Shown here: positions 1 to 63,300 of the stretch, in pieces
How the letters are laid out: every line of letters starts with the position of its first letter
How positions within the stretch are numbered: position 1 is the first letter of the stretch
DNA from: Paramecium tetraurelia
Taxonomy: Eukaryota > Ciliophora > Oligohymenophorea > Peniculida > Parameciidae
Assembly (NCBI RefSeq): GCF_000165425.1
Contig: NW_001799041.1
Location: 7,089 to 71,088, forward strand
Length of the DNA stretch: 64,000 nt
Direction of reading: 5' to 3'
Notes under the pieces: model-generated
Database searches by the model: none
Told to the model about the DNA's origin: nothing
Seen by the model: only the letters and a program-made list of their open reading frames with translations
Position numbers and translations under genes: made by a program

Positions 1-50
1 GAAAATACCACTGAGACATTTCGCCACAAGCGTGGTCGAGTCCCGTCTAA
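1..50. other. Left-edge segment that does not match the repeat
   Basis: The first 50 bases are more GC-rich than their surroundings and do not match the sequence that precedes the same point in the other five repeat copies (for example 1280-1329). They contain small complementary arms and a T-arm-like ggtcgagtcc. They may be an assembly or contig-end artefact, or a true junction. I cannot assign a function. Confidence 0.4.
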
Positions 51-3000
51 GTGATTAATGAACTTCAACAGAAGGTGGAAACTGAGGTGCCACAACTTTA
101 AGGTCAATTAAGTGAAGCTTAGGAGAAATTGAAAGATGCACAAAAGGATGCAGAATTGTGGAATAAAAAGTATCATGAATTGCTAGAGAGCAAATAAACT
201 TAAGTTCAGAACATTCTTGCTCCAGAAGAGATTGAAAAATTAAGCTCTGAAGAAGCCAAGAACGCTCTAACATAATTGAACAAGTAATATTCAGATAAAG
301 CTCAAGAGAATAAAGAATTAGAGATGGTTGTTTAACACCTTCGATAAGATTTGGATTCTTCACAAGAGAAAGTATAACAGCAAGCTAAAGAAGCACAATA
401 AGAAAAATCTGTACTTGAGTAATAAACTTAACTCCTTAATAACTAACTCAAAGATTTAGTGGCCAAGGAGGAAGTTCAAAGACAAGAAATCTTGGATTTG
501 AAAAATAAATTGGATTAAGAGAATGCTGACTTTTGGAAGAAGTAATATTAGTAATTGTCAGAAAAGCAACCTGAAATTAGTTCAACATAGGCAGGAGATT
601 TACAAGAACAACAAGTATCTTAACAAGAAAGAGAAGTAAAACCTAAGGAAATTTTGAATGAAGAAGTTGAATTACTTAAAATTAAATTAGAGAAATTAAA
701 TGATATGTAAAAAGAAAATGAAGAATTGGAAGCATAACAGATATTAATTTAAGATGAATTACTCAAAACTAAGTAACAGTTAAATGAATAAATTGCAATA
801 ATAAATCTAAAAGCCTTAAGGTAATGATCAACAGATTCAATTCTAAACAGATCCTGAAAAAGTCTTATAAATCAGCTCACTCTAGGCAGAATGTGTGAAT
901 CTTAAGAAACAAATATAGGATGTTGAATAGTAGAGAAAGGATGATCTAAAATCTTTTGAGAAAATGCTTGGAGAAGGAGTCAATGAAACTTAAGTTATTG
1001 GTTTGACTTCTGATAAATAGTAACTCTAATCTGATTTAAGACAATTACAAAATAAATGTGATCAATTGTAGTAAGAACAAATCGCATTGTAGAATTAATT
1101 ACTTTAGAAGAACAAATAAATTGTGGATTTACAAGATGAAACCAAACAAAGCGAGAAGGAAGAACAAATTCGAGGAAAGGATAACGAAATTAAACTCTTG
1201 GAACAACAAGTACAAACAGCTAAAGATCAATATTAGGAGCTTTTAGACTTATAATAATAGAACTTAACTCCTGGAGGATAAAAGGAGAAGATATTACAAT
1301 AAACCAAAGAAATACATGATTAAGAAGAAGTGATTAATGAACTTCAACAGAAGGTGGAAACTGAGGTGCCACAACTTTAAGGTCAATTAAGTGAAGCTTA
1401 GGAGAAATTGAAAGATGCACAAAAGGATGCAGAATTGTGGAATAAAAAGTATCATGAATTGCTAGAGAGCAAATAAACTTAAGTTCAGAACATTCTTGCT
1501 CCAGAAGAGATTGAAAAATTAAGCTCTGAAGAAGCCAAGAACGCTCTAACATAATTGAACAAGTAATATTCAGATAAAGCTCAAGAGAATAAAGAATTAG
1601 AGATGGTTGTTTAACACCTTCGATAAGATTTGGATTCTTCACAAGAGAAAGTATAACAGCAAGCTAAAGAAGCACAATAAGAAAAATCTGTACTTGAGTA
1701 ATAAACTTAACTCCTTAATAACTAACTCAAAGATTTAGTGGCCAAGGAGGAAGTTCAAAGACAAGAAATCTTGGATTTGAAAAATAAATTGGATTAAGAG
1801 AATGCTGACTTTTGGAAGAAGTAATATTAGTAATTGTCAGAAAAGCAACCTGAAATTAGTTCAACATAGGCAGGAGATTTACAAGAACAACAAGTATCTT
1901 AACAAGAAAGAGAAGTAAAACCTAAGGAAAATTTTGAATGAAGAAGTTGAATTACTTAAAATTAAATTAAGAGAAATTAAATTGATATGTAAAAAGAAAA
2001 TGAAGAATTGAAAGCATAACAGATATTAATTTAAGATGAATTACTCAAAACTAAGTAACAGTTAAAATGAATAATTGCAATAATAAATCTAAAAGCCTTA
2101 AGGTAATGATCAACAGATTCAATTCTAAACAGATCCTGAAAAAGTCTTATAAATCAGCTCACTCTAGGCAGAATGTGTGAATCTTAAGAAACAAATATAG
2201 GATGTTGAATAGTAGAGAAAGGATGATCTAAAATCTTTTGAGAAAATGCTTGGAGAAGGAGTCAATGAAACTTAAGTTATTGGTTTGACTTCTGATAAAT
2301 AGTAACTCTAATCTGATTTAAGACAATTACAAAATAAATGTGATCAATTGTAGTAAGAACAAATCGCATTGTAGAATTAATTACTTTAGAAGAACAAATA
2401 AATTGTGGATTTACAAGATGAAACCAAACAAAGCGAGAAGGAAGAACAAATTCGAGGAAAGGATAACGAAATTAAACTCTTGGAACAACAAGTACAAACA
2501 GCTAAAGATCAATATTAGGAGCTTTTAGAACTTATAATAATAGAACTTAACTCCTGGAGGATAAAAGGAGAAGATATTACAATAAACCAAAGAAATACAT
2601 GATTAAGAAGAAGTGATTAATGAACTTCAACAGAAGGTGGAAACTGAGGTGCCACAACTTTAAGGTCAATTAAGTGAAGCTTAGGAGAAATTGAAAGATG
2701 CACAAAAGGATGCAGAATTGTGGAATAAAAAGTATCATGAATTGCTAGAGAGCAAATAAACTTAAGTTCAGAACATTCTTGCCTCCAGAAGAGATTGAAA
2801 AATTAAGCTCTGAAGAAGCCAAGAACGCTCTAACATAATTGAACAAGTAATATTCAGATAAAGCTCAAGAGAATAAAGAATTAGAGATGGTTGTTTAACA
2901 CCTTCGATAAGATTTGGATTCTTCACAAGAGAAAGTATAACAGCAAGCTAAAGAAGCACAATAAGAAAAATCTGTACTTGAGTAATAAACTTAACTCCTT

Positions 3001-6000
3001 AATAACTAACTCAAAGATTTAGTGGCCAAGGAGGAAGTTCAAAGACAAGAAATCTTGGATTTGAAAAATAAATTGGATTAAGAGAATGCTGACTTTTGGA
3101 AGAAGTAATATTAGTAATTGTCAGAAAAGCAACCTGAAATTAGTTCAACATAGGCAGGAGATTTACAAGAACAACAAGTATCTTAACAAGAAAGAGAAGT
3201 AAAACCTAAGGAAATTTTGAATGAAGAAGTTGAATTACTTAAAATTAAATTAGAGAAATTAAATGATATGTAAAAAGAAAATGAAGAATTGAAAGCATAA
3301 CAGATATTAATTTAAGATGAATTACTCAAAACTAAGTAACAGTTAAAATGAATAATTGCAATAATAAATCTAAGAGCCTTAAGGTAATGATCAACAGATT
3401 CAATTCTAAACAGATCCTGAAAAAGTCTTATAAATCAGCTCACTCTAGGCAGAATGTGTGAATCTTAAGAAACAAATATAGGATGTTGAATAGTAGAGAA
3501 AGGATGATCTAAAATCTTTTGAGAAAATGCTTGGAGAAGGAGTCAATGAAACTTAAGTTATTGGTTTGACTTCTGATAAATAGTAACTCTAATCTGATTT
3601 AAGACAATTACAAAATAAATGTGATCAATTGTAGTAAGAGCAAATCGCATTGTAGAATTAATTACTTTAGAAGAACAAATAAATTGTGGATTTACAAGAT
3701 GAAACCAAACAAAGCGAGAGGGAAGCACAAATTCGAGGAAAGGATATCGAAATTAAACTCTTGGAACAACAAGTACAAACAGCTAAAGATCAATATTAGG
3801 AGCTTTTAGAACTTATAATAATAGAACTTAACTCCTGGAGGATAAAAGGAGAAGATATTACAATAAACCAAAGAAATACATGATTAAGAAGAAGTGATTA
3901 ATGAACTTCAACAGAAGGTGGAAACTGAGGTGCCACAACTTTTAAGGGTCAATTAAGTGAAGGCTTAGGAGAAATTGAAAAGATGCACAAAAGGATGCAG
4001 AATTGTGGAATAAAAAAAGTATCATGAATTGCTAGAGAGCAAATAAACTTAAGTTCAGAACATTCTTGCTCCAGAAGAGATTGAAAAATTAAGCTCTGAA
4101 GAAGCCAAGAACGCTCTAACATAATTGAACAAGTAATATTCAGATAAAGCTCAAGAGAATAAAGAATTAGAGATGGTTGTTTAACACCTTCGATAAGATT
4201 TGGATTCTTCACAAGAGAAAGTATAACAGCAAGCTAAAGAAGCACAATAAGAAAAATCTGTACTTGAGTAATAAACTTAACTCCTTAATAACTAACTCAA
4301 AGATTTAGTGGCCAAGGAGGAAGTTCAAAGACAAGAAATCTTGGATTTGAAAAATAAATTGGATTAAGAGAATGCTGACTTTTGGAAGAAGTAATATTAG
4401 TAATTGTCAGAAAAGCAACCTGAAATTAGTTCAACATAGGCAGGAGATTTACAAGAACAACAAGTATCTTAACAAGAAAGAGAAGTAAAACCTAAGGAAA
4501 TTTTGAATGAAGAAGTTGAATTACTTAAAATTAAATTAGAGAAATTAAATGATATGTAAAAAGAAAATGAAGAATTGAAAGCATAACAGATATTAATTTA
4601 AGATGAATTACTCAAAACTAAGTAACAGTTAAATGAATAATTGCAATAATAAATCTAAAAGCCTTAAGGTAATGATCAACAGATTCAATTCTAAACAGAT
4701 CCTGAAAAAGTCTTATAAATCAGCTCACTCTAGGCAGAATGTGTGAATCTTAAGAAACAAATATAGGATGTTGAATAGTAGAGAAAGGATGATCTAAAAT
4801 CTTTTGAGAAAATGCTTGGAGAAGGAGTCAATGAAACTTAAGTTATTGGTTCTGATCTTCGTGATAAATAGTAACTCTAATCTGATTTAAGACAATTACA
4901 AAATAAATGTGATCAATTGTAGTAAGAACAAATCGCATTGTAGAATTAATTACTTTAGAAGAACAAATAAATTGTGGATTTACAAGATGAAACCAAACAA
5001 AGCGAGAAGGAAGAACAAATTCGAGGAAAGGATAACGAAATTAAACTCTTGGAACAACAAGTACAAACAGCTAAAGATCAATATTAGGAGCTTTTAGACT
5101 TATAATAATAGAACTTAACTCCTGGAGGATAAAAGGAGAAGATATTACAATAAACCAAAGAAATACATGATTAAGAAGAAGTGATTAATGAACTTCAACA
5201 GAAGGTGGAAACTGAGGTGCCACAACTTTAAGGTCAATTAAGTGAAGCTTAGGAGAAATTGAAAGATGCACAAAAGGATGCAGAATTGTGGAATAAAAAG
5301 TATCATGAATTGCTAGAGAGCAAATAAACTTAAGTTCAGAACATTCTTGCTCCAGAAGAGATTGAAAAATTAAGCTCTGAAGAAGCCAAGAACGCTCTAA
5401 CATAATTGAACAAGTAATATTCAGATAAAGCTCAAGAGAATAAAGAATTAGAGATGGTTGTTTAACACCTTCGATAAGATTTGGATTCTTCACAAGAGAA
5501 AGTATAACAGCAAGCTAAAGAAGCACAATAAGAAAAATCTGTACTTGAGTAATAAACTTAACTCCTTAATAACTAACTCAAAGATTTAGTGGCCAAGGAG
5601 GAAGTTCAAAGACAAGAAATCTTGGATTTGAAAAATAAATTGGATTAAGAGAATGCTGACTTTTGGAAGAAGTAATATTAGTAATTGTCAGAAAAGCAAC
5701 CCTGAAATTAGTTCAACATAGGCAGGAGATTTACAAGAACAACAAGTATCTTAACCAAGAAAGAGAAGTAAAACCTAAGGAAATTTTTGAATGAAGAAGT
5801 TGAATTACTTAAAATTAAATTAAGAGAAATTAAATGATATGTAAAAAGAAAATGAAGAATTGAAAGCATAACAGATATTAATTTAAGATGAATTACTCAA
5901 AACTAAGTAACAGTTAAATGAATAATTGCAATAATAAATCTAAAAGCCTTAAGGTAATGATCAACAGATTCAATTCTAAACAGATCCTGAAAAAGTCTTA

Positions 6001-6733
6001 TAAATCAGCTCACTCTAGGCAGAATGTGTGAATCTTAAGAAACAAATATAGGATGTTGAATAGTAGAGAAAGGATGATCTAAAATCTTTTGAGAAAATGC
6101 TTGGAGAAGGAGTCAATGAAACTTAAGTTATTTGGTTATTGGCTTACTCATGGAATAGTAACTCTAATCTGATTTAAGACAATTACAAAATAAATTGTGA
6201 TCAATTGTAGTAAGAACAAATCGCATTGTAGAATTAATTACTTTAGAAGAACAAATAAATTGTGGATTTACAAGATGAAACCAAACAAAGCGAGAAGGAA
6301 GAACAAATTCGAGGAAAGGATAACGAAATTAAACTCTTGGAACAACAAGTACAAACAGCTAAAGATCAATATTAGGAGCTTTTAGACTTATAATAATAGA
6401 ACTTAACTCCTGGAGGATAAAAGGAGAAGATATTACAATAAACCAAAGAAATACATGATTAAGAAGAAGTGATTAATGAACTTCAACAGAAGGTGGAAAC
6501 TGAGGTGCCACAACTTTAAGGTCAATTAAGTGAAGCTTAGGAGAAATTGAAAGATGCACAAAAGGATGCAGAATTGTGGAATAAAAAGTATCATGAATTG
6601 CTAGAGAGCAAATAAACTTAAGTTCAGAACATTCTTGCTCCAGAAGAGATTGAAAAATTAAGCTCTGAAGAAGCCAAAAACGCTCTTACATAATTGAACA
6701 AGTAATATTCAGATAAAGCTCAAGAGAATAGAG
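51..6733 (+). repeat. Tandem array of 1,278-nt coding repeats (5 full copies plus a partial sixth)
   Basis: Copies start at the same gtgattaatg sequence at 51, 1330, 2613, 3894, 5181 and 6469. Observed spacings are 1279, 1283, 1281, 1287 and 1288. Comparing copies gives a consensus unit of 1,278 nt (426 codons), a multiple of three. The excess bases are scattered 1-nt insertions, mostly lengthening short homopolymers. Copies are nearly identical, so the array expanded or was homogenised recently. The sixth copy diverges after about 6733, where the older coiled coil begins. Confidence 0.93.
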
Positions 6734-9700
6734 AATTTGAATAAATAATTAAAGATCAATAATCATCTTTATTTTCGAAATAATAAGAAATCGATTAATT
6801 ATAGTTTAAAGTTGATTAAGCTACTCAGATTTCTAATATTTAAAAATTATAGCTATAAAATACTGCAGATGATTACACTAATTAAATAGATTAACTAAAA
6901 TAATTTATTTAAGATCTTAAATCATAAATTGATGAGCATAATCCTGCATTTTGGAAATCATCCTACTAGAAGTTATTAGAAGAAACAAGATAGTTAAATT
7001 AAACTATTCCACAACAAGATATCCAGAAGCAAGAATCTTATATTTTGCCTAATCCGCCTTCCTAAACTCTATTATAAGATTATTAATTGTTGAAATAATA
7101 ATACGAAGATTTATATTAGGCTAAACTTTTACTTTAGCAAGAATTATTAATTGCATAAAATCGTATCTCATAGCTATTAAGTGAATAAATACATAAACCT
7201 GTAGGTTAAGAAGAGCCAATTTAATTTTCAACCGATCCTTAAAAAGCCTTAGCTGTATTACAATTAGAATAGAAAATCTAATTATTAATCCACTAACTTT
7301 CTGAAATTGAAAAATTAAGAAATGATGATTTACAGAAGTTTAAAGATATGATTGGAAATGGTGTGAATGAAAGTACTGTTGCAACTCTTATGCAAGAAAA
7401 GTAATCATTATAATCTCAAATAATAAAATTCAAAGCTTAGATTGACTAGAACTAATAAGAGTAAATTGCAATTTAAAACTAATTAATTTCAAAAACACTT
7501 TAATTAATTGAATTGTAAGAAAACATCAAGCAGGATATATCTTAATAGAAAATAATACAATTGCAGGATGAAAATAATTTACTTCAACAAGAATTATAAA
7601 AAGCCAAAAAATCTTACCAGGAATTACTTGAGTTACAATCAGAAAATCTAACACCAAATGGTTTAAAAGAAAAAATTTTAAATTAATAAAAACACATTCA
7701 TGATTTAGAGGAATAAATTTTAATATCTTAATAAAAAAATGAGAATGAGCTATCATCATTAGTAGGATAATTAAGTGAAGCAAAATAAAAATTAAAAGAT
7801 TCCTTAACTGATAGTGAATTATGGAACAAAAAATACCATGATTTACTTGAAAGTCGTTAAAATCTTCCAACATTAGAAATTGAAGATTTACAAAAAAAAT
7901 TATTAGAATCCCAATAAAATACAGAAAAGGAAAAGGAAAAATATACTAATTTATTATAAGAACAGTATTCTTAACTTTCACCTACTTCTTCTTAAGCTAA
8001 ACTTTTGTAAGCATTAGATTAAATTAATTAATTAAAACTCTAGTTGGAAATCAATAAAGCTTAAGAGATTTATTCGGAGCCTCAATAATAGATTGATACT
8101 TTGCAAGAGGAAATTGAAAATTTAAGAAAAAATATTGAAAATTTAGAAAAAATAAATTAAATAAGCAATGAATAAATTGAATATTTAAAAGAGTAACTAT
8201 AAAAAAAGGAGATAAATTAGCCAAATTAACAATTTTTAACTGATAGTTAGGAATTGTTATAAATCTAAGAATAAAATATCATGTATTAATCTCAAATTAA
8301 TTAATAACAATAAGAATTGCAAGAAGCATTAAATCTAATTAAACAGCAATAAGATAAAGTTTTGGATGCTTAAAAAGATCAATAAAAAGCAGAATTTTGG
8401 AAAAAATAATATACAGATTTGTTATCTGAAAAGTATCCTTAAGAAAAATCTATTTAAATATAAGAATAAAAAGAGTAATAGGTTAGGGAAGTACCTTTAC
8501 TATAAGAAAATAAATAAATATAATAACTTGAGAATTAGATAAATTAATTGTAATCGGATAAGGTCTATCTCTCTTAATAATTGATAGACATTTAAAATAA
8601 GTTCAATAATACAATCCAACCAAATTAATAATAAGAATCTATAAGTACCCGTCAAAATGATCATATTCACAGTTTAGAAAAATAAATCGAAGAATTATAG
8701 AGAGAAAGTAGAAAGTAAGCTTATTTAAATTATTTTTAGTGTTATTGTATAAATGAGAGAAGCCCTAAATGGAAACGATTTGTAAAAATAAATAGCTGAT
8801 CTTTTAGAAATTAATAGCACTCTAAAATTAAATAATTCAAAATTATTGATTGACTTAGAAATAAATTAAAAAGAATTAATAAGGTAGTAATAGTAGGTTT
8901 AAATTTTAAACGATACTGTTAATGATCTCTAAGATCCTACAGTTGCTGAAAATACAAAATTACGCGTTTCAGATTTAGAGAAATAAATTGATTTAATTGG
9001 ATAACAAGTCGATTTCTGGAAACAAAAATATCAATAAGTTTTAAATGAGTATAGTCAATAATTATCTCCCACAAGTATTTAAAATAAAATGTTAGAGTAA
9101 ACAAAATTAATTCATGATCAGGAAGAAGCATTAATGCTTTTATAAAAAACAAAAGATTAATCAAAATTAGAAAGTGATTTGGAAATTAATAATCTAAAAT
9201 TGTAAATTAAAGAACTTTAAGAGGAAAATTTAGTTTTGAAAAAGAAATTATAAGATTATTAAAATTAAACTTAATAATTATCAATCTAAAGAGTTATATC
9301 ACAAGGAGAAAATGAGCTATAGGTGTAATATTGGAAGGATAAATATTAAGAAGCATTAGAAGCTTTATATAAAGATCCTGAGCATGTACAAGAAATAATT
9401 AAACAAAAAGAAGAAGTTGCTTAAACTTTATATTTTGATAAAGATTCACAGTCTATTCATGATTTTGAATCTGATTTGATCGAAAAATTGAGAAGTGAAA
9501 ATTAAACATTTTAAGGAGAGGTCACATTTTATAAAAAAAGAGTTTATGAATTAGAATAATAATAAAAAATTGAGCCTAGCTAATAAGATACTGTGCAATC
9601 TAGATAATATCAAATTTCTTAACTTGAAAAAGACCTATAGAAAGCTATTTCAAATTGTGCTTATTGGGAATAAAAGTATAATGAAATAGCCTAACAGAGC

Positions 9701-26142: not shown

Positions 26143-28206
26143 ATGGATTCTCAAAAGAGGAAGCGTCTAATAATTTAATATTCGTTAAAATTAAAAGAAC
26201 TCAAAGAAGGAAGAGATAGTTCTGAACAGAAAGCATAACGAGCTCATTAAAAATCTCGAGTACTCAAAACTGAGTCCTCTGTTTCATTAGTTAAATTACC
26301 ACAATAAATTCAAATGCCTCCCGTAGATGATATCATTTCTAAGGGGGAATGTAAATTAATTTTCTTACAAACTTAATCTGATGATACAGGATTTCGTACA
26401 TTTAATGAAATGATGAGGACCAATTCAAGTTGGCTTACCTAAGCAGATAAATTGGCGAATACTCTTAGTAGTCCAATGCAATTAAAGAACAGACTTCAAT
26501 TTAATCATACTCAAGCATTGAAGTTCAAGAACCGAATTGAATAAAAATGGAATATGACAGTCAAAGAAGTGGCTGATACTATAATACAAAAATAAGAATA
26601 AAAGGACCAATAAAAAATTAAATTAGTTCATTTAAAGATTAATCATTTTGATACTGACGAAATAGGACAATAGCAGGAGGAATGTCCAACACCTTCTCAA
26701 TCATAAGAAGTGATAACTGCAAATTTAAAGTTTTTTTGGTTTCACATATCAATATCAGATTGGAAACCACCTATTCGCGAAGGTTGTACAGTGACTTATA
26801 TCCAAAATTTGAATAAATGCATAATGTATGGTGGAATAGGAAATGATTTATTTAAGACTTTTGTAACTCTGAATACTCAGACATGGGTATGGAAGGATAT
26901 TGGACCTGGAGTAGGAGATGTCCCATTAGAGGGTAGATTCGGACATACCGCTACACTTTATAAGCAATAATTGATAATTTATGGAGGAGAGAAAAAATAC
27001 AACAGTGCAATGAAGATGAGAGAGTGTTATGGGGATGTTCGTATATTTACTCCAAGTGATAAAACCTGGATCTTGATTAAACCATACGGAGATGTAGTGG
27101 AAGGGCGACGCAATCATTGTGCAGAAGTAATTGGTAAATATTTCATTGTTTACGGTGGGATCAATTCATATGGTAAAATCTTGACAGATGTGGCAGGGCT
27201 TAATTTGGAAACATGTAAATGGTATTTATTAAACTATATTGCTAAGGACTTCATTTCAAATTGAGAATTCAGTTGGATTGGAAGGAGTTTCTGATGCAAC
27301 CTCTTTGGCCATGTTCAAAAGTGAAATTAAAATGGAAAACCCTTATTTCAGTTATGAATGGGTCAAAAAAAAGGGAAGGTCTTTCTTGCCCATTACAACT
27401 GAAGGCATTTATGTTTTCGGAGGGAGATTATAAAATGGAGAAGCAATTAATGACCTCAGAATTATCTAGTTTGGATTCAAACCGATTAAAATTACAAAAG
27501 TCAAGACAAAAGTAATCAATTATGTAATTAGGGATAACCACCATTAGCTCGATATTCTCATTCAATGAATTACTTTAGATAAACCAATGTCATCATTATC
27601 TATGGTGGCAGGAATGACTCAAAATAAGGAAATATCCTTAATGATATATTTGTATTGCAAATCCAATAATTCTCATGGTCTTAAGTTTAATAGATCTAAT
27701 AATTGTACTCATTCATATTTATTAGTAGAAAAAATGGCAAGTGCAGACATTCAAGTGTCTCCATTGATTCTAAAATACTTATTTTCGGAGGCTATGCTTA
27801 ACATGTGTTTGCCAATGCAGATATCCAATTATTGGAATTAGATTAGAATAAAGTGGCTAAAATGATTAAAGATAATAAAAGTAATAAAAATAGAGATGTT
27901 GTTATTCACAGTGATGAATTAGTTAATAACAACACTCTCAAAGTTTTTAAAACTGAATACTATAATGAGGCAGAAGACCCAGATCTTAAACAAAAGAAAA
28001 TCTAAGAAAATGAATTCCAAAGATTATGTTACAGCAATTTCAAAAGTTTCATGCCTCTGCCTCCACAAAATCATTCATCTTTGGTTACTGAATACAAAAA
28101 TAAGAGAGAATAAGCCAAATTAGAAATTCTCAAAAGCTAATTTAATGATGTAAGCAGAAGAAACAGTCGTAGAACAACTAGTGACTTCAAAATTATTGAA
28201 AAATGA
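26143..28206 (+). CDS. Kelch-repeat protein
   Basis: Spliced length is 665 residues. The first 200 residues are hydrophilic and helical. Residues about 205-545 form a kelch beta-propeller: repeats show IMYGGIGND, then GRFGHTATLY with LIIYGGEKKYN, RRNHCAEVIGKYFIVYGG, IYVFGGRLQ, ARYSHSMNYF with IIIYGGRND and CRHSSVSI with LIFGGYA. The last 120 residues are charged. Introns are 25 nt (27222-27246), 20 nt (27512-27531) and 21 nt (27705-27725); each is needed to keep the kelch repeats in frame. Kelch propellers bind proteins; no BTB or other catalytic domain is visible, so the role is open. Confidence 0.88.
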
Positions 28207-28252
28207 TTAGAAAAGAAATAATGAAATTTTATATTTTGTTTTAATTTAATTT

Positions 28253-29623
28253 ATGATCACCGTTCCCCAAGGTGAAAGATTAGAATGTTTCAGAATGGAT
28301 GGATAATTCGTAGGGACTCTTACATTAAATAACACTAAACCAAACAAGTACTTAATTAATTAAATCTAAGCTGTTGCGCCTTTAAAATAAGGACAAATAA
28401 CACATAAGATATTCAAGTAATGCCCCATATAGGATCTTTTACAGGGCAGTATTTTAAAGTTGTCGTTAAATGTCTAAAGTATTAATGTATAGATAGATCA
28501 TTTAATGTTAGCTAATGCAAAATTATAGGTTTTGATTGTGGATTTAACTGATTAAAATTTCAACAAATCCGACGTTAAGTCTCTAGCGTCTTATTTTGAT
28601 ACTTATTCTAACAGCTCATTTGTTTAAAAAATTAAAATAGAAATAATTACTATCGATCAAAATTAAATGACCAAATAATCAAATATCATTAATCAATCAA
28701 TCTCCTTAAGTAAGAATATAGAAGAAAGTATTTACCATTAACAAGAATTCACTTACGAGCAAAATGCTGTTCAAAGAAAAAATGAATAAATGAAATAATA
28801 GCAAAATAAAAATCCGATAACTAATTCTGACCCATTTTAAAGTGTTAGTAGAGTGTCTGCTTCTGAATAGAAATATCTTACATCTACTACATTTCAATAA
28901 ATTAAATAAACTCCATCTAAGCAATCATCAAATTCATAAAATAATCTGCCCCTTGACTATCTACCTCCAAAACCCTAATCTTATCCACATTAACCTTAAC
29001 AACCAAAATTGCATAATTACTAAGCATAAGATTTTGAGGAGGACCCATAAATCTAACGATTAAATCTCAGATTAAATTAATTATAAATAGAATTAAATAA
29101 ACAATAGGAAGAACTACAAAACAATGAAAAAGAAAAAACCTTACTGTTAAATTAGGAAATGGATTAAAATTAAGGATAAATATTTGTGAGTGTCCAGCAT
29201 ATATTTTTTTCAGCATTATTTTGTTTCTTAATAGGTTATGTGCCACAAATTGATTTTTTATTTTTTATAAAACTATAAAATTCCATTATTTCTTCATAAA
29301 TATGTAACATATAGTTAAGATTAAATATTACATATTCATAAAATATGCAAATAGTTTCAAGTTAAGCAACTGATAATATAAAACTGATTAATTAATTAAA
29401 ATTGTATTCCAAATAATAATATTCAATTAAGAATAATTTATAAGTAATAAAAAAATCTTTTTATTTCTAATTCAATGACAACAATTATAAAGAAAAATTT
29501 CTTTAGAAAGTTAGATCTAGAGTATTTGAATTAAGCTTTCATTATAAATGCCTATATTCATCGGATACAAGGATAGATAAAAAACATTTTATCTGAATTG
29601 ATTAAATTTAATTATTTCTAATG
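28253..29623 (+). CDS. VAP/MSP-like tail-anchored protein (C-terminus uncertain)
   Basis: The frame starts 46 bp after the kelch gene and is open for 456 codons without introns. Residues 1-125 resemble an MSP (VAP) domain: FVGTLTLNNTKPNKYLINQI, a following AVAPLKQGQITHKIF and a beta-rich LQGSILKLSLNVQS. A long Gln/Ser-rich linker, a short coiled coil (LRLNQLQIELNKQQEELQ) and a hydrophobic segment at about 316-341 (FFSALFCFLIGYV) follow the layout of VAP proteins, which sit in the ER membrane and hold FFAT-motif partners. After the anchor the frame stays open for 110 codons of intergenic-looking sequence, so the true end may be an unrecognised splice. The MSP call is by pattern only. Confidence 0.55.
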
Positions 29624-29641
29624 ACAAATATATATATATCT

Positions 29642-31312
29642 TCAATTTGATTTTTAATATTCCAACCAGGTTTATAATTCTTTCTTTGTATCTAGATACT
29701 CTTACGAATTAATATCAACAGCTCCTAAGATATCAGCTAATAGATTGTCCTCTGATGGAGAAGCAGCCTCTAATTTCTCTTTTAAGGCATTTTATTTAAA
29801 CAATTCTGGCTCATGCTTATAAATTGCTGCTATATTGCAATCCAAAGCATCATCAGCATTTGGATTTTAAAGCATCACTGAAACTGCATCAAGTACTTTT
29901 GTAGTTGTGAGTAAAGGACTCCATGAAGTATTTAAAACATCCAAGCAAAGTGATCCGCCTCTACTGACATTAGGATGATATAATTTAGTGATGAACTACA
30001 CTTTTGGAGGTCTGAAAGGATAATTTTAAGTGAAAACATAACTTAAAATGTATAATCCACCTTCATAAACTGTGCCTTTAGGACCATATAATAAGATCTT
30101 CCATGTTTTGATATCATCAGCAGTGGGATAACATTTAAAATTCAATTTATCACCCTATGCTGTAACATCTTGGAGTTCTTTTAAAATTCTTGCTGTGTTA
30201 TTTACACTCTAAGAGGTTGAGCTAGAATTTTAAGGGGCGCTTTCGATTTGTGATATTTTCTTTAAAATTTCTTCTTTTTTCATAACTGCAATTTTTTAGA
30301 CATCCATTGATACAACTTTCATTCCATCAGTATCAAAAGGTTTATCTTTCAATGAATTTAAATCTTGCAATTCTTTTGGATACTCTTTTTGTTCTCTATG
30401 GCTTATACTTAATATGCTTTCTATTTCAAATAAAGACATGCCTTCAGCCAAAGTTTAAGGACAATAGCATCTACCATTTGTTGCATGAGTCAAAGTTTTT
30501 AAACCAACACAATCATTATTTACAACAAAGGAATCTATTATAATTTAATTTTCAAATATTCTATTAACTAAACTTTAAGGATTTTCTTTTGATTAATTAT
30601 CGTCTCCATCAGTTAATGCAATTATTCTTAAGATAATATTTGGATATTTTTTCTTGATTTCTTTCAACTATTCAATTGCATAGGCTATTGCATCATAACA
30701 TTTAGTTCCACCTCTTGGGGATGCATCATCGACTAATTTTATGAAATTATTAAAATCGTTTGTGAAGTCACATTTATCTGTTATAAAGGATTCAAACCAT
30801 ACAAGTTTTACTATGTGATTAAATTCAAAAGCCAATGTTTTATCGGCAAAGGCAGAGAAAAACGCATTGACAGCTCCAATTCTAGATAGTTCCTCTTCTT
30901 TAAAATACATTCCGCCCATTGATCCTGAAATATCAAATAACACAACTATAGCTTCTACAGGATCATTATTTTGATTGAGATCTTACTATAATTATTCTTA
31001 TTATTCTTCTTAAGCTACTATTTGTTGTTATTATTACTGATTTACTATATTTTATTTTTATTCCTATTACACTACCTTTACTATATCATTTGTTTTCAGT
31101 AAATTTCCAATTGTTTCACTTTCATTTAAAATAAATCCTTCTTCATCTTAAAGCAAAACTTAATTCTCATCAATATTAATTCCATTCTCTAAAAAGTTCT
31201 TAAATATTTATTTTTTTAAGTCATTTATCTGTTTTTAAGGATCATCAATAATTAATTTTTGTTTTACTTCTCCAAAGGTAACTCTTAATATCAAATTTTA
31301 ATTTGAGTTCAT
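29642..31312 (-). CDS. Ubiquitin-like / von Willebrand A / E2 ubiquitin-conjugating fusion protein
   Basis: One uninterrupted, intronless frame of 556 residues. Residues about 5-85 look ubiquitin-like (LILRVTFGEVKQKLIIDD). After a Gln-rich linker, residues about 118-295 are a vWA domain with a full MIDAS: VVLFDISGSMGG (Asp126, Ser128, Ser130), a Thr in SPRGGTKCYDAI and an Asp in IIALTDGDDN. Residues 344-556 are an E2 fold: ILLYGPKGTVYEGGLY, NYPFRPPKVQFITKLYHPN and GGSLCLDVL with the catalytic Cys at about 456 and the HPN Asn at about 448, then a C-terminal extension. All catalytic residues are present. The three modules lie in one frame (31312 to 30283 is exactly 343 codons). It should load ubiquitin on Cys456; the vWA may recruit a substrate or ligase in a metal-dependent way (inference). 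Confidence 0.9.
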
Positions 31313-31779: not shown

Positions 31780-32837
31780 TCATTTCAAATAATACTCATC
31801 ATTTTAAGTAAATATATCTTTGTGTTTTGATATATATTCCAAAGTCATCTCTTTGCAATAAAAGGCAGCTTGCTTAGATGTACAAAATGTATTTTTTGGA
31901 ACATATCCATTTTCTTTAGGTTAAAATTCAACTTCAAAAAACAATTAAAAATTCAATCTTTCAGAATTACTTAATCCGTGATCTATTATTCCATATGTAT
32001 GAGATACAATGCTTTTGATTTCATCTAATCCCACTTAACCTTAATCAACTTAAGAATTTGAAATTGTAATCATGCTAACATGATCAATTGTTTTGACTGA
32101 GTTAATAAAATCTTATGCTAATACAGGTTGAAACTCTGAAGGTATTCCAGGTTTACCTTTTGATTTGAGTTTGCTTAATTTTTTTAATCTTCTTAGCTTC
32201 AATTTTTAAATAGGTAATTTTATTTTAGGTTTTTTGTTTTCTTTTGAAATTTATTGCTTTTCTTGGAAGTTACACTTAGATTCTTCCTTTTTTATACTTG
32301 GTAATGTTTTCTAAGGTTATTAATTAGGTTCCTTAATTTGGAGACTATTAGTAGAAATTATTACAGGATTCTCTCTTACAATAGGTTGCTTTTCTTCTTA
32401 TGAAGACAAACTAATTTTTAAAGATTCGGAATCAGTAATTACAATACTTGGTACTTGCTTTGGGGGAGGAGAGATAGTTATTTACTTCAATTTTTTATTT
32501 TATAGTGGCTTTTAATTTTTACTAATTTTATGATTTTTTAGCTATTTTTATTTAGTTGTCTTTTTTTATTATTTTTGTGGGATTGGCTTTTCGTTGTGGT
32601 TAGGGGATGAACTTATTTGAATGACAAAGTCATCTAATCTAGTTTATTTCTAATTTAGATAAAATGAATTACTTTTGGTTTATTAGATAAAACATTCCAT
32701 TCAGATGACAATTTATTTCTAATCTATCGAAATGTTAACTTGGGATGAATTGATTTGCAAATATGCTTATTTCTCTCTATATAGTCTTCCTCAGATTAGT
32801 ATGAGGGTTGAGCTGAGATTGATCTTCTAGTTTTCAT
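31780..32837 (-). CDS. Hypothetical Lys/Ser-rich protein with globular C-terminus
   Basis: Spliced length is 344 residues with one 23-nt intron (32650-32672, GTA...TAG). The N-terminal two thirds are basic and low-complexity (KKTTKQKQLKNHKISKNQ). The last 120 residues look folded: FQPVLAQDFINSVKTIDHVS, then VGLDEIKSIVSHTYGIIDHG and EVEFQPKENGYVPKNTF. I do not recognise the domain. Nothing in the neighbours indicates a role. Confidence 0.72.
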
Positions 32838-39349: not shown

Positions 39350-40420
39350 TCATGCTGATGATCTCTCTTAAAGATAAACCTTGACATTGGATAGTTTGGT
39401 AGCCAAGATCTCTTCAACTTATCTGATGATAGAGATTTCTTATTATCTATGTTCAGATTCTTCAGCATATTGAGTTCTCCATGCATCGCATTCAGCTTCC
39501 TTTTATTCCTTTCCTGATGAGGCAGCGTTCAACTCGTCGGTAGCATCTTCCTTTCTCTTCTTTTATAAGTCCAAAGCTTATTAATTATCTTGGAGTTATC
39601 TTTGAGAATCTTCTCTGGCAGCACTCAAGGATTCTCTTTATGAGCCAATTTCAATAACCAAAGCTTCGAAGTCTAATTAAGCTTAGATTTCTGTTTGTCT
39701 GGCAGCTTCAAGAGCTTCAGCCAATTAAGTACTGACTTCACCTAACTTGTTGATGACATTGTTTAATTATTCAGCTGAGAAGGTTGAAGCGACTTACATA
39801 AGTGCAAGGATTGGGTTGGTTGCACCAATCTTATTCAATTGTGTCAAGGCAGCCAAGACTTCTTGATCTGGTTGGATGGAGCTCAATCTTTAGATAATGA
39901 CTTCGACAGCTTCAATGACATTTTCTGTTTCATTTTCAAACTTCTTGAAATTTTCAGCATCTTCAGCTCTTTATTCTCTGATTTATGTTTCTTATTCGTT
40001 TAAGATATCTAATTAGACTGTCTTATCTTCGACATCTTGAGTCAATTGTTCAACCTTGGCACTGAGGCTTTAGATTTCTTGGGTTGATTCAGTGATTTCG
40101 TTGGAAGCGAAGTCAATTCTTCTGTTATATTGGTAGATTTCTGTTTCGCAATCAACTTCATCTTAAGCGTGCTTTTGGTCAGCTTCTTGTTGGTTGAGGA
40201 TAAGATTTTCTCTCAATTATTGTAACATTTTAGCGATGTCTCCCAATGGGGCCTTGTTATTCAATTAGAGTGCAATTGTGTCCAATAATTTTCTTCCCAA
40301 TTCATGTTCTTCCATTGCTTCTAATTATGTGAAAACTGCCTTGCTTGGGTCGTTGGATCTTTTAACAAAAATAGCTTGTGTGAGTGTTAATCCCAAAAGA
40401 GCGATAAGAATCAATTTCAT
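39350..40420 (-). CDS. Trichocyst matrix protein
   Basis: An intronless frame of 356 residues. Residues 1-17 are a signal peptide (MKLILIALLGLTLTQA). The mature part is long amphipathic helices: LRENLILNQQEADQKHAQ, VDCETEIYQYNRRIDFASNE, LGEVSTQLAEALEAARQTE. A Cys in the motif DCETEIYQYNRR and a late one in EAECDAW are the only mature cysteines. This layout (signal, helical heptads, a central loop FSAEQLNNVINKLG, no other domain) is that of Paramecium trichocyst matrix proteins, which are cleaved and crystallise in the trichocyst core and expand on exocytosis. GC is higher than in neighbours, as usual for abundant secreted proteins. Confidence 0.9.
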
Positions 40421-40600
40421 AATTAAATTATTGGCATAGACTTAAAAGGAAGATTCACTTTTCATATTACACTATTCGTTTTTGTTCCTTCAAAAGCATT
40501 TATTTTAAATAAATTTTAAAAAACGATTACTCGATTAAAATATAAATAGAATTATATAATAACAATCTAAATCCATCAATATATTATAATTCATATATAT

Positions 40601-41985
40601 TCATTTATTCAATAGGTATGATGGCACATCTGCAAAAGTTGGCTTGAGCGTGTAGTTTCCCGGTCCTGGCACACTCTAATCTGTTTAATTTAGATTTGGT
40701 CTTAGTGCTGTTCCGAATCCCCACTTAGGCCCATCAGAGGAACCTCTCAAATTATAATTTCCAGGCCCTACAAATTGAATAAGCAATTATTACCTGGAGC
40801 GTCTTTTCCAAAACCAGCATTCAATTCAGCTCTTTGACCTGTACCAATTTTTGCTGAAGCAGGACGCTGTTTACTTGGTCCATCATTGGGATTATATGCT
40901 CCTGGACCAGGTTGATTCAAAGTAGTAGTAGGTTCGTACTTACTTCCTAAAATCTAATGTTTGGGACCCTCCCCCATTTTAGTGTTCAAATCATAAGTTC
41001 CAGGTCCTGGGATATCTCTTGTGTCACTCAATGGCCTACGAGTAGCACTACCAATACGAACTTATGCTGATTTTGGCCTTGCAAATTCATATCTAGATTC
41101 ATAAGTTCCTGGTCCTGGAGTTCTGAGCAATTCTCGATTCAAGCTATCTCTAGTCTCATTTCCGATTTTATAGGAAGGAGGTCGCAACTTTTGTTTCTTA
41201 TCCCAATTGTATGTTCCAGGTCCAGGCACATATTCCTACTGAGTTTAATTTCTTCTAGAAAGCATGGAAAACCCTTTTTGTGAAACATTAAACTCGCTTC
41301 TTGCTTCATATTCTCCTGGACCAGGATTCTTTATTTCTGAAAACGCTCCTCTTGATGCCGTCCCAAATTTATATTATGGACCAGCACTATTTGGTCTTTT
41401 TAGATATGATCCAGGTCCTGGGGTACGAGTCACGTCATAAAATCCATCGCGCTTAGAGTTGGGAAATCTTATAGTGAAACTACGATTACCTCATACAAGG
41501 AACTCCTACTACCGTGGAAGGATTTTCGTAAGCTCCAGGCCCTGGTTATAATGTAGAGTAGGTTTACGATAGTTTGGCTCCCATTGAATAATTAGGAAGA
41601 GCCTTCACCATTGTTCGGTAATTAGGATTGTAAGCTCCTGAGAAAAATGACTGCTTTATATTTACCTGGTCCTGGTCCCTATTTTGCTAAAATTGTTGGT
41701 TTCTTAAGACCAAAGGAATACTTTGGTCCCTCTTTGGTTACTCTCGAAGGATGCTCATAGGCTCCAGGTCCTGGTGCAAATACTCTAAGAAGGCCACTTC
41801 TATTGCCAGATCCAAATCTACTTTAACAGGCAAAATTTACTTGAAAGATGGAGGCGTCATCTTCTGTTTTTTCATTGGTTAGTAAGCCCCTGGGCCAGGT
41901 GTTTCACTTCTGGGTTGAGTGGCTGATTTAGTTAAAACTGATAATTACATCGTTACGCTTTGCCAATTGAAAAAGCACTCACCAT
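40601..41985 (-). CDS. Sperm-tail PG-rich repeat (SHIPPO/ODF3-type) protein
   Basis: Spliced length is 419 residues. About ten copies of a PGPGxY core occur (for example TPGPGAYQP, APGPGAYEH, QPGPGAYEN, TPGPGSYLK, NPGPGEYEA, VPGPGTYNW, TPGPGTYES, IPGPGTYDL, QPGPGAYNP, VPGPGNYTL), separated by 30-40 residues that often start with a K-x-S/G-F-G motif. Five introns of 26, 23, 28, 22 and 26 nt (41923-41948, 41818-41840, 41638-41665, 41468-41489, 40768-40793). These proteins bind the outer or inner surface of axonemal microtubules. No other domain. Confidence 0.9.
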
Positions 41986-59176: not shown

Positions 59177-59884
59177 TCATTTTCCTTTACAATAAGTGCA
59201 AATGAAGGATTCTATGTTTTAGACCTATTCTTCTGTCAACCCTTCACATTTTAGATGAATCCATTGATTACACATATCACAAAACACATATGGCAGATCA
59301 GGGTTTTGCGGTTTTTTACAATAGCAAACTTTTGGCCATTTACTTACCTCTGGCAGAAACTCTTCGCTTTTTGTGTTATAGAATGCTCTAGTAAAATATA
59401 CCGCATCCTTGAATTCATATTGTTCATAATCCTCGTAACTTAACACGAGAACTTTAGATTGTATTGCATCTACCAAAATTGCATGTTCTTCTTCTGTCAA
59501 AAACAATTCGGACATTCCCATATATTCTTTTTGTTCTTAATATTGTGATGCAATTTTGTCTTTGTTACAATAGAGGTTGATTATGACTAAAGGTAGTTCT
59601 TGGTCATTTTTCTGAGATTTTATGCTAATTATTTTTTTTATTGTTGCTATAAATTCAAAATTTTTGACATTTATGAGAATTGACTCTCCGGTCTTATAGA
59701 TTTCATCATTAAACTTGAGTTTCTCGTAAGTCAATGTATGTTGAGGTGCTTTTTCTGCTAATTTATACAATTTATCAAAGTTTTTAGCTATGGCCAATTA
59801 TTCTAAAGCGTCCTAACTGAATTCTTTGAAAGTGAATTTCCTTCCATTTCCTGGTTCATAATCTGGATCGTCTTGCGCTGACAT
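59177..59884 (-). CDS. BAH-PHD chromatin protein
   Basis: An intronless 235-residue frame. Residues about 55-180 look like a BAH domain (GESILINVKNFEFIATIKKI, ELFLTEEEHAIL, KVLVLSYEDYEQYEFKDAV, YFTRAFYN). Residues about 185-233 are a PHD finger: VCYCKKPQNPD, VFCDMCNQWIHLKCEGL and FICTYCKGK give the C4-H-C3 ligands. The Trp in QWIH fits an aromatic cage wall for methyl-lysine. BAH-PHD proteins read histone marks in repression or replication; it likely acts in the nucleus. The start follows a spacer with no upstream in-frame ATG. Confidence 0.85.
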
Positions 59885-60397: not shown

Positions 60398-63300
60398 ATG
60401 AGTGATTTAGTGCAATTCAAAGAGTTAAGACAAAAGGGGATTGATGAGTTCCATACAAGTAATGACATGGTCTACAATATAATTTCGAAGAAGTAAAGCG
60501 TTTTAAATGTAAATGAGCAGATGGTTGGAAGAGTGGTTGGAGAGTAAAGAGAAAGACCATCCAATAGACAACTACTCTTGTGTGAATTCAGACTTACTTT
60601 AGTCGAAATCATCAACTATCTTTAAATATGATCCAATTCAAAGTCACATGTGGAATAAGATTATGCTACCAAATCTTTAAGAAGGAGTTGATTATGAAAT
60701 TTTAGATAAAGCATCTTGGGAATTCATAGCCAAAAAGTCCTAATATTTTTGATTATGTAGGTACCACACGACAGCCATAGAGCGAGATGCCACTATTGTA
60801 AACGGAAAGAAACAAGTGAATGTCAATCTTGTGCCTTTAAATTTCGGAGCCGTGTTTCCTTCTTCACTTCGCAAATACAATGGAGGAAAAACAGCCTCAC
60901 TCATTAAGGGGGACTAGTATGTATCAAGAACGTGCAAATTATAATCATTTATTGAATTATTGGCAAGCACTTTGTAAACAGTGTACGTAATTATCATTCA
61001 ATCATTAATAGTAGCGGCTATGAATTCCTCAGACGTGATGGAATCAGACTCTACAAAGCTCCAATTGGCATGACTATTTCAGAAATCGAAAAGCATATAT
61101 CTGAAGAAATTAAGAATCTTGGAACTTATGATGATGTCGTATTTGATTTCAAGGATGGCGATTATTTGGATCCAACCAAATATGAAACTATTGATGATTG
61201 TCAAATAGCACCAGGCTAAGTAATACTTGGTGATTTCAAAGAAGTCTAAAAAAATTGGGTCATTAAACATCCCTTTTTCCCAATGGAAGGAAAATGTGAA
61301 GGATGCTATAATTTCAAAGTGCTTCAGTTTCCATGTGAATGCAAAAAAGTTAGTTATTGTACAGAAGAGTGCAAAAAAAAGGATGAAGCATATCATTTAC
61401 CTAGATGTGAAAAGACAGATTCCGATGATGAGACTATGGATAAACTCTAAAGGATTGAAAAATCCATGGATGGCAAGGTCGGATTATAGAATCTAGGAAA
61501 TACTTGTTTTATGAATTCAGGAATCCAGTGTATTGGTAATACATTCCCAATAAGAGAATACTTGTTATCTAATCAATACAAACAGGATATCAATGAATTA
61601 AATACTTTGGGTACTAAAGGAGAATTAGCATAAAAGTTTGCCCACCTTTTAAGAAGAATGTGGTATGCTGAAAGAACACCTATACCTCCATTCTCACTTA
61701 AAAGAGCCATAGGAAAATTTTAACCCTAATTCCAAGGATTCCAATAGCATGACAGTTAAGAATTGATTACTTATTTATTGGATGGATTAAATGAAGATTT
61801 ATGTCGTATCAAATAGAAACCTTATGTGGAGAGAAAAGACTATGATGGTAGACCTGATTTCGAAGTTGCTAAGGAATCTTGGGAACAATTTAAGTTGAGG
61901 AATGATAGCATTATCGTTGACAATCTATATGGACAATATAAGAGTACTTTAAGATGTCCAAATTGCAATAAAATATCAATTACATTTGACCCATATTTGA
62001 TGGTTAACGTCAGTATACCTTAAAATACAACCAAAAAGTTAGAAATCCAATTCATAGATCCAAATTTATTGTGGGACTGTTAGACTCTTATCTACAACTA
62101 TGAAAAAACATAAGATCCTACACTTGGTTAAATTCTGCAATCTCCAGAGATTTAAGATAAAATCTAACAAATTAACCCAACCGATCTGATTTATATCTGT
62201 ACATCAGCTTACTAACATGATGATACAGATGAAAATGATAAAATGTCAAGTTTAAGGAAGAAATTGAAATACAAAAAGTTATACATCAGGAAGGCTTTGC
62301 AATCAGAACTCAATATTGAAAAAGACAATAAAATTTGTATAATGATACATGAATCCTTCAAGTAAAATGCTTAATATCAATGGAAGAGAGAAATTACTCC
62401 TGCTTTCAACTTCTATTTTGATAAAACCAAAACTACCCATGCTGACATACATAAATTTATCTTTGATATTCATGTTGGAGTCTTAGCCACATTTGAAGAC
62501 CTCCCCAAATATTAAGGCAACAATTGGAGCGAATATTATGAAGAGAATATATTAGACAAGGTTTATTATTTAGAATTCAAATCCAATTAAAATTGGTAAG
62601 TTGAGTGTGCTTATTGCAATGCCAAATCATGCAATGATTGTGTATGTGCATATGTTTAAGACACTTGTATTGAAAAATATATATAAAAAGAACCTAAATT
62701 AGAAATTGAAGTATTTGTAGTCTGGAAAAGAGGATTCAAATCAGCTAGCTCTGTTGATGAGTTATACAATGATTGGTTGAAACATCATCAAAGGAAATAA
62801 ACAGATGTTGAGGAATTGCCAAAATAATTAACTGATCAAGAACAAACATAAGAAGTTGTCGATGATGCAAAATAATAAGAAAACATATCTGATGAATAAT
62901 CTGCTTAGAAATAAAATTTCACTACATGTCTCGTACCTATTGAACCTGCAATACCAACAATCTAACCTACTAATGTTTAAGGTGCAACTGAAAAATCAAT
63001 GAAATTAACTGAATGTTTGAAATTCTCTGAGCAACCTGAATAACTAGATGAAGAAAATACTTGGTATTGTAATCAATGCAAAGATCATGTGTATTTTATC
63101 CATTTTAATCTATTAGCCGTGCTTTTAAAGTCATGGAAATCTATAAGACACCTAAAATATTGATATTCCATTTAAAGAGGTTCAAGAACTCCAATAAATT
63201 TTTCAAAAGCAAACTTGAAACCTTAATAGATTTTCCAATCGAAAATTTTGACATTAGAGAATTTGTTTAGAATCATCATTTACCATCTGATTTCGCTAAT

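Follow-up and report, generated by a model that had tools for sequence, protein, structure and literature searches.

Ubiquitin cascades as a rule use a generic E2 and leave the choice of target to the E3, and UBE2D (UBC4/UBC5, UbcH5) is a bare UBC domain. UBE2O, BIRC6 and UBE2K are E2s with large extra domains, some of them combined E2/E3 enzymes, and they resemble the protein described here in having recruitment domains built onto an E2; to our knowledge none of them has a vWA domain, which sets them apart from it. In RGLG-type plant ligases a copine-like vWA and a RING stand in one protein, so that a vWA is again joined to a ubiquitin-transfer domain, but its partner there is a RING E3 and here an E2, and the likeness drawn here is one of architecture. 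The initial annotation of this locus described E2s as normally stand-alone or with short extensions. UBE2O and BIRC6 limit that description, and given their large added domains, the presence of an extra domain is no novelty in itself. A 2024 review of ubiquitin evolution presents E2s as consisting mainly of the UBC domain and short extensions, some of them belonging to larger multidomain proteins (PMC11354881). The vWA of RPN10 is a docking platform in the ubiquitin system, where NUB1 links it with FAT10 (PMC6539292), and docking through a vWA therefore has a precedent in this system; RPN10 differs from the present protein in being a proteasome subunit without an E2, and its sequence match is weak (0.36). 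An E2 with an added domain is thus a known kind, and what seems new in the present locus is that the added, presumably recruiting, domain is a vWA.

The 64-kb window (the whole stretch of DNA analysed) contains on its minus strand a gene of 556 codons plus a TGA stop (29642..31312), in which no intron was found. Read in the ciliate code (NCBI table 6), the frame includes 34 TAA/TAG codons that specify Gln, and a scan of this frame upstream of 31312 found no in-frame ATG ahead of a stop. The single intronless frame of the initial annotation is thereby confirmed. A split into two genes had been suspected at position 30283, which is codon 344 and lies inside the connector between the vWA and the E2 (residues 301-372; 30197..30412, minus strand). 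Two adjacent genes, or a reading artefact, would fit the lower conservation of the linkers compared to the vWA; however, one frame without TGA crosses 29642-31312, the same vWA-E2 join occurs at four loci, and the connector is constrained when compared with the full-length copy on contig C91 (pN 0.37 vs. pS 0.63). Because the connector is co-linear in that copy and under amino-acid constraint, a gene boundary at 30283 is unlikely, and we reject the two-gene reading as extremely improbable on the combined evidence of the unbroken frame, the family of four loci and the constraint across the connector.

The Pfam scan that had been suggested as a domain check placed VWA (PF00092, residues 122-265, 1.1e-8, 35.9 bits vs. 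a cut-off of 23.8) and UQ_con (PF00179, residues 375-509, 3.6e-41, 140.5 bits vs. 27) over the curated cut-offs, but no ubiquitin-type family passed. An NCBIfam scan gave nothing. The vWA domain (residues 118-300; 30413..30961, minus strand) is 74% identical to that of the C91 copy. As had been claimed, its MIDAS is complete: motif 1, D127-I-S129-G-S131 (30920..30934), Thr203 (30704..30706) and Asp235 of the TDG loop (30608..30610), all on the minus strand, are invariant in 4/4 members of the family described below. Matches of this vWA to solved vWAs are weak, the best being the inter-alpha-trypsin inhibitor heavy chain (0.023), with Rpn10 at 0.36, and a profile of the four family sequences reached 0.032 at best against solved structures. 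The partner of a MIDAS usually contributes an acidic residue to the site, as in integrins. The residues present here suggest that a metal can bind; metal switching of activity does not follow from this, and the "Ca/Mg-gated" and "self-targeting" E2 of the initial annotation are guesses. The vWA may, as was also proposed, pick the substrate or the ligase.

The N-terminal domain (residues 1-83; 31064..31312, minus strand) had been called ubiquitin-like. In the whole-protein Pfam scan (E up to 1) residues 1-77 were covered by no family, and none of ubiquitin type was listed. When residues 1-84 were scanned alone, Coilin_N (0.0013) and Cytokin_check_N (0.0079) came first, followed by Nup54_57_C (0.33), the first two remaining under their curated cut-offs (19.1 bits vs. 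32.9 and 16.6 vs. 22.6, respectively). Further families matched over the N-termini of the four members, each in one member, were Par3_HAL_N_term (0.04), ubiquitin (0.097), DUF7088 (0.12) and UBL_UBAC1 (0.13). We take Coilin_N, Cytokin_check_N, Par3_HAL_N_term, ubiquitin and UBL_UBAC1 to be ubiquitin-fold families. Of ten shufflings of the N-terminal letters, eight gave no match and two gave one each, to other families and at best 0.16. We also compared the N-terminal profile by hhalign to 19 ubiquitin-type rows of this genome, namely 16 nonredundant matches, several of them partial or out of frame at one end, ubiquitin itself, and two Ubls of the long forms; the probability was 1.6%, surpassed by 2 of 30 column shuffles. 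Direct homology of residues 1-83 to ubiquitin is not claimed, since the hhalign match was no better than column shuffles. Against solved structures, the profile of the four N-terminal domains matched only hemerythrin-type chains (0.08 and weaker), and the version from the long member on contig C22 alone matched only unrelated chains (0.11 and weaker), all of which we took as chance. In its own genome the window N-terminus matched itself and the C91 copy only, the long members not being recovered, and a search with Coilin_N had a single weak match, at another place in the genome (0.343). The claim of a ubiquitin-like fold therefore holds as likely only: the Coilin_N and Cytokin_check_N matches stand above shuffles, but no curated cut-off was passed and the ubiquitin comparison stayed at shuffle level. 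Residues 1-83 are probably a coilin-type ubiquitin-like domain, which would resemble the coilin/Net1 type and not ubiquitin itself. The domain is weakly constrained (pN 0.41 between the window gene and C91), as is the Gln-rich linker that follows it in the translation (residues 84-117; 30962..31063, minus strand), for which pN is 0.44 and pS 0.51 over residues 81-117. Such a linker is ordinary for ciliates, where Q-rich stretches expand via reassigned stop codons (PMC10942620).

Searches of the genome that contains the window (69,072,372 bases, 231 contigs) identified 45 matches to the whole protein, of which four spanned both the vWA and the E2. A search with this vWA alone (E up to 1) recovered these four loci and no other, each vWA being joined to an E2. 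The Pfam VWA profile had 33 matches in the genome and, among the four family loci, found the window copy only. After the family, the next matches of the whole protein were two E2s with 43% identity (contigs C35 and C108) that look UBE2D-like by eye. Repeated at four loci, the vWA-E2 fusion is no accident as judged from these sequences, and because the genome has four such genes the protein appears to be a real ubiquitin enzyme, maybe with its own partner-finding module. The C91 copy is full-length (562 residues, 55% identical to the window protein), with UQ_con at 9e-42, VWA_2 just under the cut-off (26 vs. 27 bits) and a complete MIDAS. The other two members, on contigs C22 and C200, are long relatives, scanned as frames of 1178 and 1092 residues that were read as running through short introns and that both lack the last exon, the C200 frame lacking the true start as well; the introns read from the sequence are very short (27 and 22 nt). 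In C22 and C200, respectively, a ubiquitin domain (1.1e-11 and 4.5e-12), VWA_2 (1.7e-7 and 4.1e-6) and UQ_con (7.8e-27 and 4.4e-27) are all over the cut-offs. With introns removed, alignment of the long forms to the short N-terminal domain gives 9 invariant columns of 98, a weak match, and a version of that domain may stand at the start of each long form. The two long relatives (L011 and L012) also have in common, in the stretch that separates their ubiquitin domain from the vWA, about 340 residues, 36% identical over 341 codons, for which no Pfam family was found at E up to 1 and which are possibly an undescribed domain.

The surroundings of the two short genes also correspond. The upstream neighbour of the window gene (31783..32700, minus strand) has a match beside the C91 copy (50% over 119 aa, 1.6e-40), and so does the downstream neighbour, an open frame on the plus strand (27866..29593), whose match beside C91 is on the other strand (44% over 298 aa, 1.4e-53). 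The two regions thus look like a duplicated segment, which may have arisen via whole-genome duplication. The downstream neighbour has opposite orientations in the two segments, and its sole Pfam match is the sub-threshold eWH_GTF3C1 (0.00049).

The E2 (UBC) domain (residues 373-510; 29783..30196, minus strand) is UBE2D-like, UBE2D being its nearest E2 subfamily in sequence. Its best solved relative is a UBE2D1 (4.5e-34), and 50 of the 60 matches listed, out of 311, are named UBE2D/UbcH5 or fusions thereof. The HPN motif (H446-P447-N448; 29969..29977) and the catalytic Cys456, aligned with UBE2D Cys85 (29945..29947), both on the minus strand, are present in the window protein as the initial annotation stated; H446, N448 and C456 are invariant in the four members and P447 is not, being Cys in the two long ones. 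The UBE2D residues F62 and P95 also have their equivalents in the window gene (F433 and P466). Apart from the attached vWA and N-terminal domain, its differences from UBE2D include two sites of interest. Lys393 (30134..30136, minus strand) falls, by our count of UBE2D positions along the alignment to the solved relative, at UBE2D Ser22, the backside ubiquitin site; Lys is found there in 4/4 vWA-E2s, and among 19 other E2 rows of this genome Lys or Arg occurs in none and Ser in 7. Some other E2s also have Lys at this site, so this change alone is not unique. As the window E2 departs at Ser22 from the UBE2D subfamily, we call it UBE2D-like and do not file it as UBE2D. At the second site, Asp475 (29888..29890, minus strand) is aligned with UBE2D Leu104; the residue is Leu in C91, Gln in C22 and Glu in C200, and it varies among the 19 other rows, 7 of which have Leu. 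In UBE2D the closed conformation of E2~ubiquitin depends in part on Leu104, and because Asp475 replaces it, RING-stimulated transfer is possibly poor in the window copy. In the long members the F62 position is Ile or Leu, the motif reads HCN where the short copies have HPN, and UBE2D Asp87 has no equivalent.

For a tree, 30 of the 73 UQ_con matches in the genome were taken, comprising the 4 family members, 7 that were too partial and were dropped, and the 19 others, two of which were identical over the tree columns. In the resulting tree of 23 rows a single branch (support 87/90) separated the four vWA-E2s from everything else, the UBE2D-like rows included; the grouping appeared in 86% of bootstrap trees, which is moderate support, the two long rows being partial. 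Another UBE2D-like row, L052 (contig C27, ~8156-8596), has Ser at the position of the catalytic Cys; the match contains a TGA, which may lie in an intron, and L052 could be a pseudogene or encode an E2 without activity. The E2 branch of the window copy is longer than that of C91 (0.58 vs. 0.37). Conjugation of another ubiquitin-like protein in place of ubiquitin, or use of a lineage-specific E1, would fit such a long branch, but its solved relatives are UBE2D-type ubiquitin E2s and the next matches in its own genome (C35 and C108, 43%) are UBE2D-like by eye, and we consider this alternative very unlikely.

Comparison of the window gene to the C91 copy over 550 codons gave pS 0.64 and pN 0.30, synonymous sites being near saturation so that pN/pS ratios are rough. 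By part, pN was 0.409 in the N-terminal domain, 0.444 in the Gln-rich linker, 0.167 in the vWA, 0.369 in the connector, 0.313 in the E2 and 0.382 in the C-terminal tail (residues 511-556; 29645..29782, minus strand), which the C91 copy has in common (43% identical) and in which no Pfam match was found. Constraint in the short pair is thus strongest on the vWA, whose bootstrap range (0.128-0.213) has no overlap with that of the E2 (0.256-0.376). The long pair shows like constraint on its E2 exon (pN 0.212) and vWA (0.201), and the primacy of the vWA is thus true of the short pair only. That primacy, together with Asp475 at the Leu104 site, the longer E2 branch of the window copy, and the HCN motif and missing Asp87 and F62 equivalents of the long members, is consistent with a protein that is mainly a scaffold, its conserved function being binding by the vWA while the window E2 drifts to a pseudo-enzyme. 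However, Cys456 and Asn448 are kept in 4/4 members, the E2 of the short pair is still under purifying selection (pN 0.313 vs. pS 0.662), and the C91 copy retains HPN, the Cys and Leu at the Leu104 site; we regard the scaffold explanation as distinctly unlikely.

Taken together with the domain matches, these findings lead us to prefer, at about an even chance, a UBE2D (UBC4/5)-type E2 that is predicted to be catalytically competent and to carry its own vWA recruitment module. E1 would load ubiquitin onto Cys456, and the vWA would grip, via its metal site, a partner that is either the substrate or a component of a ligase, while the N-terminal head, probably of Ubl fold, could serve as a docking handle on its Gln-rich tether. 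The E2 would then act beside the vWA-bound partner, either together with a RING ligase, for which F433 and P466 are retained, or depending less on such a ligase. Several observations count against this reading: the vWA matches solved vWAs poorly, the other family members escape the Pfam VWA profile or, in C91, fall just short of VWA_2, Asp475 occupies the Leu104 site, the vWA is no more constrained than the E2 in the long pair, and the head is a weakly constrained domain of only probable Ubl fold. In a study of UbcH5B, the S22R substitution abrogates backside ubiquitin binding, discharge then being insensitive to added ubiquitin, and when S22R is combined with F62A and P95D the enzyme no longer binds RING or ubiquitin at its backside (PMC6349121). 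With Lys393 in place of Ser22, backside ubiquitin binding should be abolished here; UBE2D-style backside aid to processive chain building would therefore be absent, or this face would be taken by the attached domains. A stronger version, which we hold only tentatively and think rather unlikely, is that the vWA does part of the job of an E3, its MIDAS selecting the substrate and the E2, lacking backside binding, delivering one or a few ubiquitins directly. The same residue bears on autoinhibition, in which the vWA or the head would sit on the backside or active face of the E2 until metal or a partner frees the enzyme: Lys393 in 4/4 members should remove the usual backside ligand and free this face for an internal partner, and the connector (residues 301-372) is somewhat constrained (pN 0.37 vs. 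pS 0.63), but the Gln-rich linker has the appearance of an unrestrained tether, and we find this arrangement doubtful.

Among titles and abstract openings in the open-licence literature, we found no Ubl-vWA-E2 protein, which is a weak sign of novelty, and the initial annotation, which knew of no described pathway for this combination, agrees with what that literature yielded. The words UQ_con, VWA and ubiquitin occur in a nematode paper (PMC4213498). A prokaryotic source of the fusion was rejected: 44 loci with related vWAs, some in Asgard archaea, had no E2 in the DNA available for them, a profile of the E2s of this genome giving at best 0.019 and two short partial matches. Among viral contigs, 34 pattern matches included no relative.

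Several other features lie in the same window. A ubiquitin-specific protease (61070-63163, plus strand; UCH 6.1e-32), which includes a sub-threshold MYND finger, is encoded some 30 kb away from the E2 gene, and at 59180-59884 on the minus strand a PHD finger (1.2e-6) accompanies a BAH domain that narrowly misses its cut-off (4.7e-7). By eye, positions 1-8800 (plus strand) hold long Gln-rich, coiled-coil-like open frames in which very similar blocks recur at intervals of ~1.3 kb, separated by breaks in the frame, and 40747-41950 (minus strand) holds open frames rich in PGPG repeats, which we take to resemble sperm-tail PG-rich repeat proteins. The open frame at 39350-40465 has no Pfam match but resembles a trichocyst matrix protein; this frame, the genetic code and the very short introns of the long relatives all point to Paramecium.

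Whether specificity can be encoded by the E2 would find a natural test in a family whose E2 chains include a conserved vWA. Its members form a series from near-canonical to altered E2s, running from the short copies, with Leu vs. Asp at the Leu104 site, to the long copies, with HCN and the F62 equivalent lost.
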